Of a stretch of 64,000 nucleotides of DNA, positions 1 through 59,634 are shown one piece after another; positions within the stretch are counted from its first letter, which is position 1, and each line of letters opens with the position of its first letter. A program made the translations under genes and the position numbers. The stretch lies in contig NZ_JAALJI010000027.1 in NCBI RefSeq assembly GCF_011064595.1, positions 1-64,000 on the forward strand. The letters run 5' to 3'. A model generated the notes under the pieces. It worked only from the letters and a program-made list of their open reading frames with translations. It did no database searches and had not been told where the DNA came from. Source of the stretch: Paludisphaera soli (GTDB lineage Bacteria; Planctomycetota; Planctomycetia; Isosphaerales; Isosphaeraceae).

Positions 1-1916
1 TCGGGGAGTTCGCGCGGGAAGTAGTTGTTCCAGTCCAGGACCTCGCCGCCCGATCGGGTGATCAGGAACCAGAGGAACTGATCGCGCCTGGGGCCCGGCG
101 GGAGGAACCGGACCGAGCCGTCGACCAGGCCGACGACGAGCCCTCGGGGGTCGCTCACCTCCAGCGCGGGCGCGTGGTCGTAGGCCGCGGCGAGTTCGCC
201 CGGCTTCGTCCATTCGACCGCCTCGGCGGCGATCGCCAGGAACGCGGTGTTGGAGGTCCCGTCGGTGATCTCGCCGATCCAGACGCCCTGGCTGGGCGAG
301 TCCGCCCCCCCTGACAGGGCCCCCGCAGGCCCGCCGGGCATCATGCCCATCATGCCGGCCCCCATGCCCCCCATCATGCCCGAGTCCATGCCCATCATGC
401 CCATCGATCCAGCCCCGTCCGGCAGGGAGGATCGAGGATCCGCTGCGAGCCGCTCCGGATTCGGGGCGACGGCCGGCGGATCTTCCTCCCGCTTTGGAAG
501 TGCCTCGCCCAGGCCCCCCGCACCACCCATCCCCATCGTCCCGCCGGAGCGAGTCGCTGCTCTGCCCACCCCTGGCATCCGTCCGCCGGTCCCCTTCGTC
601 GTGGGGCGAGGGCCGCGACTCATCCCCTTCATCACGCCGGGCCCCATGCTGCCCATCATCCCGGCGCCCATGCCCCCCATCATGCCAGATTCCATCGAAT
701 CGGAAATCGGGCCGAACATGGAGCCGGGGGAGGAGAAGCCGCGGAACCGCGTCCAGCCTTGCGGCGTCGGGTCGCCGGGGATCTGGAAGACGGCCGGCAT
801 GCGCGCGAGGAGCGTCTTGTTATGGGGGCTGTCCCAGGGCTCGTCGAGATGGAACTCGTTGTAGAGTTCCTCCTCGCCGAGGCTGGGCAGGAGGGCGACG
901 CGCCAGCTCAGATTCGGCCGGCCGTCGGGGCCGAGGATGGCGGCCGCCGGAAAGCGGCCCTCGAATCTGTCCGGATAGTCCTGCAGCGCGATCAGGATGC
1001 GTTGCAGGTTCGCCACCTTGACCCGGGCGTCGGCGTCCGGCGGGGGGGCGGCGGGGGCCTCGGGCGGCGGGTCGGCGGTCCAGGCGGGGGCGGAATGGCT
1101 GAGGAGGCCAAGAAGGCCGAGGCCCCCGGCGAGGGCCAGGGTCGCGAGGAGGGCTTTGGAGAACATGGTCGAGGAGACTCCCTGGGTCAGGACCGCGACG
1201 GCGGGCGGGACCGGGCCTTCGGCCGCGATCGTCGCCAGGGTCGCTCGGATCAAGGCCGACGACGCGGGGGACGCGAACGATTCGGCCGACGCCGCCGCCA
1301 GGGCTGCCGCCGGCGCGACGCCCCGCCGGACCAGCCGGCCCCGTAGGGCGTCTCTCGCACGCGAGAGGCGGCTCTTGACGGTGCCGACCGGGCAGTCGAG
1401 TCGCCGGGACGCCTCCTGTTCGGAGGCCCCGCCGAGCAGGCAGAGGATCAGAACGTCGCACTGGGCGGCCGGCAGCCGGGCCAGCTCGGCGTCGACCACG
1501 CGGCCCAGGTCGGACCACTCGGCGCGGGCGTCCTCGCGGGCGGGGACGTCGTGCGCGAGCGGTTCGGCACGGCGGCGGTCGGAGCGGGCTCGGGCGCGGG
1601 CCCGCAGGCAGACCCGCCGGGCGACGCCGTAGAGCCACGAGGCCAGGCGCTCGCGGTCGCGGAGCTTGCCGCCGTCGCGGGCCAGGACGAGGAACGTCGC
1701 CTGGAAGGCGTCGTCCGCGTCGTGAGGATCGCGCAGGAGCCGCCCGCAGACGCCCCGGACCATCGGCCCGTGCCGCGCCAGGATCGACTCGAACGCCCCC
1801 TCGTCGCCGGCGGCCAGGAACCTCGCCAGCAGCTCGCCGTCGGGGACGAAGGTCGCCCCCCGGCGAAAGAGCTGGTCCAGATCCCGGGCGAACGCCCCAT
1901 TCCCGCGCCTGTCCAT
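1..1916 (-). CDS. ECF-type sigma-70 factor fused to a DUF1559-like secreted domain (3' end beyond window)
   Basis: The frame is open from ATG 1916 to the window edge (about 638 codons). Residues about 35-105 match sigma-70 region 2 (DDAFQATFLVLAR, then LASWLYGVARRV) and about 143-195 match region 4 with its helix-turn-helix (EASRRLDCPVGTVKSRL). After a linker (TQGVSSTM) a hydrophobic segment at about 252-272 begins an exported part. That part resembles DUF1559 planctomycete proteins: an N-terminal NLQRI helix, SWRVALLPSLGEEELY, and a C-terminal VDGSVRFLP motif like the H-X9-DG signature. Two Met/Gly-rich stretches (MMGGMGAGMMG) interrupt this domain. The sigma part should direct RNA polymerase while the C-terminus lies across the membrane; that topology is inference. 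A GGAACC word at 1977-1982 on the reverse strand could be an ECF -35 element, unproven. A second sigma fusion of similar layout lies at 58117-59634. Confidence 0.85.
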   Translation of the reverse strand, partial: MDRRGNGAFARDLDQLFRRGATFVPDGELLARFLAAGDEGAFESILARHGPMVRGVCGRLLRDPHDADDAFQATFLVLARDGGKLRDRERLASWLYGVARRVCLRARARARSDRRRAEPLAHDVPAREDARAEWSDLGRVVDAELARLPAAQCDVLILCLLGGASEQEASRRLDCPVGTVKSRLSRARDALRGRLVRRGVAPAAALAAASAESFASPASSALIRATLATIAAEGPVPPAVAVLTQGVSSTMFSKALLATLALAGGLGLLGLLSHSAPAWTADPPPEAPAAPPPDADARVKVANLQRILIALQDYPDRFEGRFPAAAILGPDGRPNLSWRVALLPSLGEEELYNEFHLDEPWDSPHNKTLLARMPAVFQIPGDPTPQGWTRFRGFSSPGSMFGPISDSMESGMMGGMGAGMMGSMGPGVMKGMSRGPRPTTKGTGGRMPGVGRAATRSGGTMGMGGAGGLGEALPKREEDPPAVAPNPERLAADPRSSLPDGAGSMGMMGMDSGMMGGMGAGMMGMMPGGPAGALSGGADSPSQGVWIGEITDGTSNTAFLAIAAEAVEWTKPGELAAAYDHAPALEVSDPRGLVVGLVDGSVRFLPPGPRRDQFLWFLITRSGGEVLDWNNYFPRELP

Positions 1917-58116: not shown

Positions 58117-59634
58117 TCAGCGCAGGTCGTCGATGGTCAGCTTGGCGTCGGGGAAATGCTCGCGGGTCCAGGCGATCAGCCTCTCGACCGCCGCCGAGTG
58201 GCCCTGCATCGGGAGGAGTTCCCGTTCCAGCCTCAACATGTCACGCCTCGCTTCATCACGCTGGTCGCGCGTCTCTTGCAGGGCCCGGGAAGCGGCGGCG
58301 ATCTTCTGATACTCCGTTGGGCCGGAGCCTTCGTCCGCGTTCAAAGCGTCAAGCTCGGCCATGCGTTCGCCAGCCGTGGCCCTCAGCCTCTGGAAGTCTT
58401 TGTACGCGACCTGAAAGAGTTTCAACGCGGATTCGCGTTCATCCTTCATGTCCAACAGTCGGGCGAAGAGGACGCGGACCGGCTGGACGACGGCCTCCAA
58501 CTCCTCGCGCGAGGCGAGGCCGCGCTCGACCAGCTTGAGCCGCGTCTCGTAGAGGCGATAGGCGTTCAACAGCTGGGCCTCGATCTCGCGCAGGCCCTTC
58601 GCGTCCACGGCCGACCGGATCGCCGCCGAGGGGTCGGCGGCCGGTGCGGACGCGGGCGCGGCGGGCGCGGCCAGCATGGCGGCGATCCGGTCGAGCTTGG
58701 CCTCCAGCGCGTCCAGGCGGTCGGCCTTCGCGGCGGGCGTTTGCGGCGGGGGGGGCTCGTCGCGGGGGGCGGGCCCGTTCAGGCCGCCGCCGGCGACGGC
58801 CAGGGCCCCGGCGGTGAGGCCGACGGAGGCGATCGAGAATCCGAGGAGCTTCCACGGGGATGGGGACATGGTCGCGAGGACTCCCTGGGCCAGGGCCGCG
58901 GCGGGCCAGGCGGTGGAGGATAGGGAGGAAGCCGGGCCGAGGAATCGGCCGGCGGCGGCGACCGTCGTCGCGACGAGCGACGGCGGGGCGGGGGGGAGCA
59001 GGTCGACCCGGGCGAGGGCCAGGCACGCGGGGGCGTCGATCCCAAGCCGGGTGAGGCGGCCGTGCAGCAGGGCCCGGGCCTTCGCCATCCGGCTCCGCAA
59101 GGTGCCCGACGGCCAGCCCAGCTCGGCCGCCGCCTGGTCGTAGGTCCGGCCCTTCAGGTGGAGCACCAGCGGGGCCCGATACTTCTCGGGCAGCCGGGCC
59201 AGCTCGCGGTCGAGCGTCTCCAGCGCGTCGTCCGCCGGCCGCTGGGGCGCGGCGACGGCCCGGTCGAGCCCGACGTCTTCCCCCTCGCGGGCCCGGCGCT
59301 TGAGCAGGTCGGAGCGGGCCCGGAGCGCCACCCGGCGGGCCACGCCGTAGAGCCAGCTCGAAAGGGCGTCGCCGTCGCGGAGGCTTCCCCCCTTGCGGAC
59401 GAGGACCAGGAACGTCGCCTGGAACGCGTCCTCCACGTCGGCCGGGTCGCGCAGGTAGCGCCGGCAGAGCGCCAGCACGAGCGGTCCGTGGCGGTCGACG
59501 AGCGTCTCGAACGCCGACTCGTCCCCCTCGGCCCGATACCGATGCAGGAGCCGCGCGTCGCCCCCCGGCGGGTCCACCCCGTCGCGGAGCAGCCGCTCGA
59601 CATCCCGCACCGCCCGCCGTCCCGACGTCCGCAT
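58117..59634 (-). CDS. ECF-type sigma-70 factor with membrane segment and coiled-coil C-terminal domain
   Basis: A 505-residue protein. Region 2 (VEDAFQATFLVLVRKGGSL, SSWLYGVARRVALRA) and region 4 (LARLPEKYRAPLVLHLKG, YDQAAAELGWPSGTLRSRM) occupy about residues 35-195. Then comes an ALAQGVLATM linker, a hydrophobic helix (LLGFSIASVGLTAGALAVAG) near 260-285, a Pro/Ala-rich hinge, and a long charged helical region (about 330-505). This is like the fusion at 1-1916 in its first ~280 residues but with a different tail. It should direct a regulon while sensing through its C-terminus (inference). ATG 59634 was chosen because GGGAGGGAG precedes it; TTG 59640 is in frame. Confidence 0.9.
   Translation of the reverse strand: MRTSGRRAVRDVERLLRDGVDPPGGDARLLHRYRAEGDESAFETLVDRHGPLVLALCRRYLRDPADVEDAFQATFLVLVRKGGSLRDGDALSSWLYGVARRVALRARSDLLKRRAREGEDVGLDRAVAAPQRPADDALETLDRELARLPEKYRAPLVLHLKGRTYDQAAAELGWPSGTLRSRMAKARALLHGRLTRLGIDAPACLALARVDLLPPAPPSLVATTVAAAGRFLGPASSLSSTAWPAAALAQGVLATMSPSPWKLLGFSIASVGLTAGALAVAGGGLNGPAPRDEPPPPQTPAAKADRLDALEAKLDRIAAMLAAPAAPASAPAADPSAAIRSAVDAKGLREIEAQLLNAYRLYETRLKLVERGLASREELEAVVQPVRVLFARLLDMKDERESALKLFQVAYKDFQRLRATAGERMAELDALNADEGSGPTEYQKIAAASRALQETRDQRDEARRDMLRLERELLPMQGHSAAVERLIAWTREHFPDAKLTIDDLR

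Follow-up and report, generated by a model that had tools for sequence, protein, structure and literature searches.

The window analysed here, 64,000 nucleotides of the Paludisphaera soli genome, comprises bases 1–64000 of contig C118, so that window base 1 is also base 1 of the contig. On the minus strand, one reading frame is open from before position 1916 down to window base 3; read from the ATG at 1916–1914, it spans positions 1–1916 and encodes an ECF sigma factor, a membrane helix, and a DUF1559-like domain. The 3′ end of this gene is missing because the window begins at the first base of the contig. All features of the gene lie on the minus strand. Sigma-70 region 2 (Sigma70_r2, residues 47–111 counted from the ATG at 1916; positions 1584–1778) and region 4 (Sigma70_r4_2, residues 141–191; positions 1344–1496) both match Pfam above cut-off, and each contains a conserved cysteine, Cys57 (1748–1746) and Cys159 (1442–1440), respectively. 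A hydrophobic segment with a hydropathy peak of 2.02, predicted to be a membrane helix or signal-peptide core, occupies residues 255–273 (1098–1154) and is followed by SAPAW (1080–1094), which by eye resembles an A-x-A site for signal peptidase I; A-x-A-W is present in several orthologs in the fusion alignment. The first part of the DUF1559-like domain (residues 303–393; 738–1010) was assigned by Pfam and a confident model, and the last part (residues about 545–630; 27–284) by conserved columns and the model. Two Met/Gly-rich inserts, at residues 409–432 (621–692) and 503–526 (339–410), are of low confidence and unstructured in the model. Ahead of the helix, a Shine-Dalgarno (SD)-like CAGGGAG (1178–1184), which encodes Gln-Gly and the first base of Val, precedes a proposed internal in-frame start, the ATG of Met251 (1164–1166), located 11 bases past GGAG. 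The proposed short product (1–1166) would be a DUF1559-like protein with a signal-peptide-like start, 388 residues long to the contig edge. According to the preliminary description of this DNA, regions 2 and 4 of a sigma factor share a single frame with a helix and a DUF1559-like domain, and the uninterrupted minus-strand frame with three Pfam domains above cut-off bears this out.

The window protein scored 54.3 bits against PF07596 (DUF1559, SBP_bac_10; gathering score 23.3), and the short-product piece alone also matched this family in Pfam (E 2.6e-15). The match of the window protein covers only profile positions 15–103 of 268; positions 1–14, the pilin-like N-terminal stretch, are unmatched, and a separate helix and linker stand there instead. 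In the predicted structure of the window protein, the sigma and DUF1559-like parts are confident and the helix is of low confidence; solved structures of ECF sigma factors match the sigma part, and the DUF1559-like part of the copy on contig C116 gave a high-confidence model. Foldseek found no match of the DUF1559-like model to the PDB at E 0.001 or better, and when PDB sequences were searched with a profile, no hit fell below E 0.1 and most of the seven weak ones were coiled-coil constructs. The best VIA-align hit was a weak one to a pseudopilin (Z 4.9, 93 residues, rmsd 4.3), and six of the seven rows were pilins or pseudopilins. The predicted fold of the domain may therefore weakly resemble pseudopilin heads. 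The same type of domain was also seen in other settings. At L025 (G020 C113), a BlaR1-like membrane protein (M56-type by eye) runs on into a helix and then this DUF1559-like domain, so the domain is also placed behind another type of signaling protein. L024 (G039 C8) has a lipoprotein-like start (by eye) and two tandem DUF1559-like domains of the same subtype, an architecture that fits an outer location of the domain, and large proteins ending in DUF1559-like domains of the same non-pilin subtype occur at L017 (two) and L029 (one).

Because the window gene sits at a contig end, we considered the explanation that an artefact of assembly or sequencing produced the fusion, or that it arose recently and only once. 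A whole-chain search (E 1e-55 or better, with at most the best 27 candidates per genome scored) returned 25 single matches that span both the sigma and the DUF1559 part; they come from 14 of the 45 family genomes, namely all six genomes of the genus and eight of the 39 elsewhere in the family. The P. soli genome itself holds three fusions, on contigs C118 (the window gene), C116, and C132, the latter two being full copies, and the nearest 17 fusions form a single clade with 100/100 support in a tree of the sigma part. For the joint, the artefact explanation is already refuted, and doubt remains solely about the absent 3′ end; as a whole it has hardly any probability left. Absence from all close relatives had been named beforehand as grounds for giving up the fusion, and the fusion is instead found, with the frame likewise unbroken, in those 14 genomes; the idea of a one-off is not supported, given the three copies in this genome and the wider class described below, whose members end in a variety of tails. 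Beyond the DUF1559-like domain, 16 of the 21 other aligned fusions carry a Pro-rich linker and a coiled-coil-like helix, and the window gene presumably lacks them because the contig ends there.

The tree of the sigma part labelled 26 rows as fusions. Three of these (L050, L164, and L192) were taken as false labels on account of tail or helix similarity, the Pfam count giving 23 fusions (PF07596 in 20 of 108 C-terminal extensions, plus L078, L080, and L091 outside those 108), and the printed count of eight changes on the tree is therefore too high. Apart from the clade of 17, three fusions fall in another clade (100/99) and three are placed elsewhere. A single origin for all DUF1559 fusions is not supported by this distribution; the six fusions outside the main clade indicate that sigma factors acquired a domain of this kind on more than one occasion, or that some lost it.

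The Met/Gly-rich stretches vary among the fusions. With placement scored in a 20-residue window, they fall in a loop of the domain in five of the 22 aligned fusions and in the C-terminal tail in four; in 13 they fall in neither of these places. They lack structure and are predicted to be disordered in the model of the window protein, and comparable stretches occur in the unrelated extensions of L042, L094, and L096. On these three grounds (poor conservation, disorder, and occurrence in unrelated extensions), metal binding was set aside as the main reading. The preliminary description had offered either a metal-binding or a spacer role; the former is unsupported, the stretches being predicted disordered and in the domain loop of only 5 of 22 fusions, and the latter agrees with their variability and low complexity. 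We read them as variable low-complexity spacers.

Many planctomycete ECF sigma factors end in long tails that lack an explanation. Among the best 30 of 40 sequence matches examined in the P. soli genome, we found 16 more genes (L042–L057) that have the sigma part, the short tail, and the helix but end in other tails. The class set assembled from 180 gene readings at loci came to 147 distinct genes, of which 138 have the hydrophobic helix and nine lack a usable one. Of 198 genomes taken from the taxonomic class, 103 contained matches at E 1e-50 or better to a profile (A1) built from 12 diverse members. The cultured Isosphaeraceae strain Singulisphaera acidiphila DSM 18658 has five loci of the class. 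Cys57 is invariant in the 22 aligned fusions and in the 12 diverse members; Cys159 is invariant in the same fusions and conserved at 90% or more among the diverse members. As read from sequence, a single frame in the window gene joins an ECF57-like sigma factor, a short conserved tail, one hydrophobic helix, and a DUF1559-like domain.

Pfam was run on 108 extensions, that is, the window piece and 107 of 108 complete ones (the very short L145 was omitted). Among the first 25 of 93 families, it counted DUF1559 in 20, CarboxypepD_reg in 8, CusF in 5, WD40 (PF00400) in 3, and STN in 3; the tail of L048 (G000 C79), a sigma factor of the same class, has a polysaccharide-export (Poly_export) domain. 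WD40 apart, most of these families, such as CarboxypepD_reg, Poly_export, CusF, and STN, are usual in exported proteins, which fits a tail on the outer side of the membrane. CusF is a copper-binding domain, and its presence in five extensions means that metal sensing may hold for other members of the class.

A second class gene lies within the window at 58120–59634 (minus strand), with a sigma part, a helix, a different tail, and a CAGGGAG ahead of an internal in-frame ATG at 58869–58867; no DUF1559 was detected in the part scanned (Pfam, E 0.01). L052 and L053 were recorded as tandem class members at G000 C112 94780–97452, both with GAAGGAGCG ahead of the internal ATG, and are one gene counted twice (zero branch length on the tree). 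In L095 (G050 C107), also a class member, an in-frame TAG interrupts the stretch that separates sigma region 2 from region 4, and similarity continues beyond it; the TAG is either an error or decay of the sigma part.

In nearly every class member, a motif like L-x-Q-G-V-x-x-x-M stands directly before the helix. Its DNA reads CAGGGAG, GAAGGAG, AAAGGAG, or similar, then ATG, and the Met is usually followed by Lys or Arg and a hydrophobic run, often with A-x-A after it. In this order, the elements resemble a ribosome-binding site, the start codon that it would serve, and a signal peptide. A pattern of the type [G/E]-[V/A-type]-xx(x)-Met ahead of the helix was found in 120 of the 138 helix-bearing genes and was absent from 18; in these 120 genes, the distance from the SD-like site to the ATG is 11 bases in 112 and 8 bases in 8. 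Since this search requires the Met, we judged conservation of the Met from other sets. Among 106 genes with L..[GE][VA], the Met is at the expected place in 100, and of the six misses only L083 and L084 are real (L084 keeps GGA, with no Met at the right place), the other four being cases in which the pattern was caught at the wrong place. In the aligned fusions, GGAG lies 8 or 11 bases ahead of the ATG in 20 of 22; of the other two, L092 places AGGAGG ahead of a second ATG, and L091 shows neither arrangement. In P. soli, 18 of the 19 class genes (the three fusions and L042–L057) have GGAG or a longer site ending 7–11 bases before the helix ATG, the exception being L045 with AAGG only, and the arrangement is absent from two shorter ECF genes of this genome, L058 and L059. 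The exact SD core of the window gene is GGAG only, which is short. Two genes from two genomes of another family, L263 and L264, have the motif LAQHALRGLFW, in which the Met is gone and GGAG is missing (L263 retains GAGGT); this Met-less motif is a natural contrast to the class.

The choice of codon at the motif Gly was strongly biased. Among the 120 genes, 107 have Gly, encoded by GGA in 87, GGG in 18, and GGC in 2, while GGA makes up 12.7% of Gly codons elsewhere in the same genes (binomial p 1.5e-58, with genes treated as independent). A first set of 36 genes had given GGA 33 and GGG 3 against 12.7% GGA elsewhere. The bias is free of search bias, because the search ran at the protein level. 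It persisted after thinning by identity, with GGA in 40 of 59 genes below 60% identity, 17 of 24 below 50%, and 8 of 9 below 45%; the other genes of the 59-gene set have GGG (12), GGC (1), or Glu (6). One alternative is that Gly-Val-xxx-Met is kept for protein reasons, such as binding by the sigma tail or placement of the helix, and GGA for an unrelated reason at the DNA or mRNA level, with no second product. The Gly and the Met are indeed invariant, or nearly so, as residues too, and the 13 genes with Glu at the motif use GAG in 10 and GAA in 3, so that GAG at 10 of 13 is barely above its usual 67%. Against this account, GGA accounts for only 3–17% of the codons at six other conserved Gly positions of the sigma part, a sharp difference from the motif Gly of these genes, and in three genes the site has moved jointly with an ATG. 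These are L044, L048, and L092, which lack the usual site and have AAGGAGG, GGAGG, and AGGAGG, respectively, before a second ATG, with GGAG ending 7–8 bases ahead of it. We regard this alternative as improbable, with something like one chance in eight.

We compared the region with synonymous codon shuffles that preserve each protein. SD cores of at least six bases before a Met in the region occurred in 47 of the 138 genes, compared with 7.5 ± 2.3 in the shuffles (maximum 14). Median duplex energy with the anti-SD was −7.2 at 43 picked Met codons and −3.8 at 521 other Met codons, even though the simple patterns chose the wrong Met in a few genes (e.g. L076, L079, and L092), which works against the result. 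The mRNA at the internal ATG was 2.65 kcal/mol less structured than in the shuffles, compared with −0.21 at 353 sampled other Met codons (p 4e-16), and the relaxation was still 1.56 when the SD codons were held fixed. A canonical anti-SD is present at the 16S rRNA in four of six genus genomes, with Rfam confirming 16S in three of these four loci; the anti-SD was taken from these relatives because a 16S 3′ end was not found in the P. soli draft genome. As for spacing, 11 bases is long: the 15 stand-alone DUF1559 starts found in 28 P. soli loci gave 14 sites (four or more bases) at 5–13 bases, 10 of them at 5–8. The signal was weaker in 30 genes from other families of the taxonomic class, with cores of at least five bases in 11 (versus 6.3 ± 1.8) and of at least six in 7 (versus 2.2 ± 1.3); nine of the 30 had no core of four. 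Taken over the class, the comparisons point to an SD-like site at a working distance from an in-frame ATG, conserved beyond what the protein would need.

SD-like pausing ahead of membrane helices is a known idea, and the same bases could act in this way: only the full-length protein would be made, and the site would slow the ribosome and help hand over a helix far from the N terminus to the insertion machinery. The site does shortly precede the helix codons (by 24 bases in the window gene). Pausing, however, does not account for a Met kept almost without exception at one distance (in 100 of 106 genes), the relaxed mRNA structure at the ATG, and the new SD sites before second ATGs. It also drew nothing from a weak control made up of 28 P. 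soli kinases with an identified catalytic loop, in which none of the 12 with a later helix (5 of them with a regional Met) had an SD core of at least five bases (null 0.42). We consider pausing unlikely, at roughly one chance in six. SD-like stimulators also act in known frameshift sites, and a programmed frameshift at the site would produce a sigma factor that lacks the helix and is soluble. In the +1 frame, a stop follows closely, after a median of 3.0 codons, but the distance in synonymous shuffles is about equal (3.25); the tested slippery-type runs near the ATG were found in 0 of 120 genes, and the −1 frame is open for longer than in the shuffles (71 versus 54 codons). We rejected the frameshift on these three grounds and give it only a very slight chance.

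The reading we favor, and consider probable at about two chances in three, is that the window gene encodes a membrane-tethered sigma factor with an outer domain, acting as a one-piece switch, and also yields the exported domain alone from an internal start. That the gene has two products we infer from conservation. In this view, a membrane tether would keep the sigma part on the cytoplasmic side, with the DUF1559-like part outside, so that the fused protein may serve as a one-piece switch from outside to inside. On binding something, the outer domain might free the sigma factor, perhaps once the chain has been cut; alternatively, the sigma factor would work while tethered. Release, if it occurs, could follow cutting by signal peptidase and an intramembrane protease, which is speculative; it is plausible that an anchored sigma domain must be released to act. 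The conserved internal ribosome-binding site and ATG would, with good support from the comparisons above, yield a separate exported domain that carries a signal peptide of its own, and, more speculatively, free copies of the domain could pair or compete with tethered ones and so time the hold and release of the sigma factor.

Whether the same holds for the whole planctomycete class of anchored ECF sigma factors is, in our estimate, an even bet: its members would be two-in-one genes, each giving a tethered sigma-sensor and a free exported sensor that tunes the switch. One message would then supply tethered and free sensor at a set ratio, and the outer domain would be swapped between genes while the internal start was retained. 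If the internal start is true, each such gene is annotated as a single protein although cells make two from it, and exported domains read as parts of regulators also exist free outside; it would also explain why Gly-Val-xxx-Met recurs before otherwise unlike tails. A single synonymous codon offers a directly testable handle on the control of these sigma factors. No earlier description of such a start was found for these genes in the literature covered, subscription papers being mostly outside that coverage, and to that extent a probable internal start common to the class is the new part of the finding.

The DUF1559 (PF07596) proteins of planctomycetes resemble the window protein in its profile match above cut-off and in the conserved core motifs; unlike them, the window protein has no pilin-type N terminus, sits behind a sigma factor, and bears Met/Gly inserts. 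According to the available part of a published account of ECF sigma factors (PMC8999054), group ECF57 has sigma regions 2 and 4, a long C-terminal extension, and two conserved cysteines, one per sigma domain, and WD40-like tails are described as prevalent, in some members. The window protein shares regions 2 and 4, the long extension, and the one conserved Cys per sigma domain; its tail, however, is a membrane helix and a DUF1559-like domain where that of ECF57 is WD40-like, and Pfam found no WD40 in it. Section 3.5.2 of that account, on ECF57, names no internal start. By this published description, rather than by a group model, the window gene fits an ECF57-like sigma factor with an unusual tail.

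The same account, within the part available, describes ECF52, ECF53, and IutY as sigma factors with a membrane-spanning C-terminal extension, release by cutting having been shown for IutY and proposed for ECF52 and ECF53. They are like the window protein in that a single chain holds a sigma factor, a membrane helix, and one more domain, and because they are known, anchoring of a sigma factor is as such not new. They differ, as described there, in bearing an anti-sigma or zinc-finger part, none of which is recognisable in the window protein: Pfam gave no anti-sigma or zinc-finger match at E 1 or better, and neither Cys nor His occurs between residues 192 and 273. The closest likeness for the proposed translation is the short form of ClpB, made from an in-frame internal start (PMC6168691, as far as its available text goes), in which one frame has two starts and two products. 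Unlike the short form of ClpB, the short product proposed here would be exported from the cytoplasm by way of a signal peptide, the long one would be a transcription factor, and the internal site recurs across a large paralogous class.
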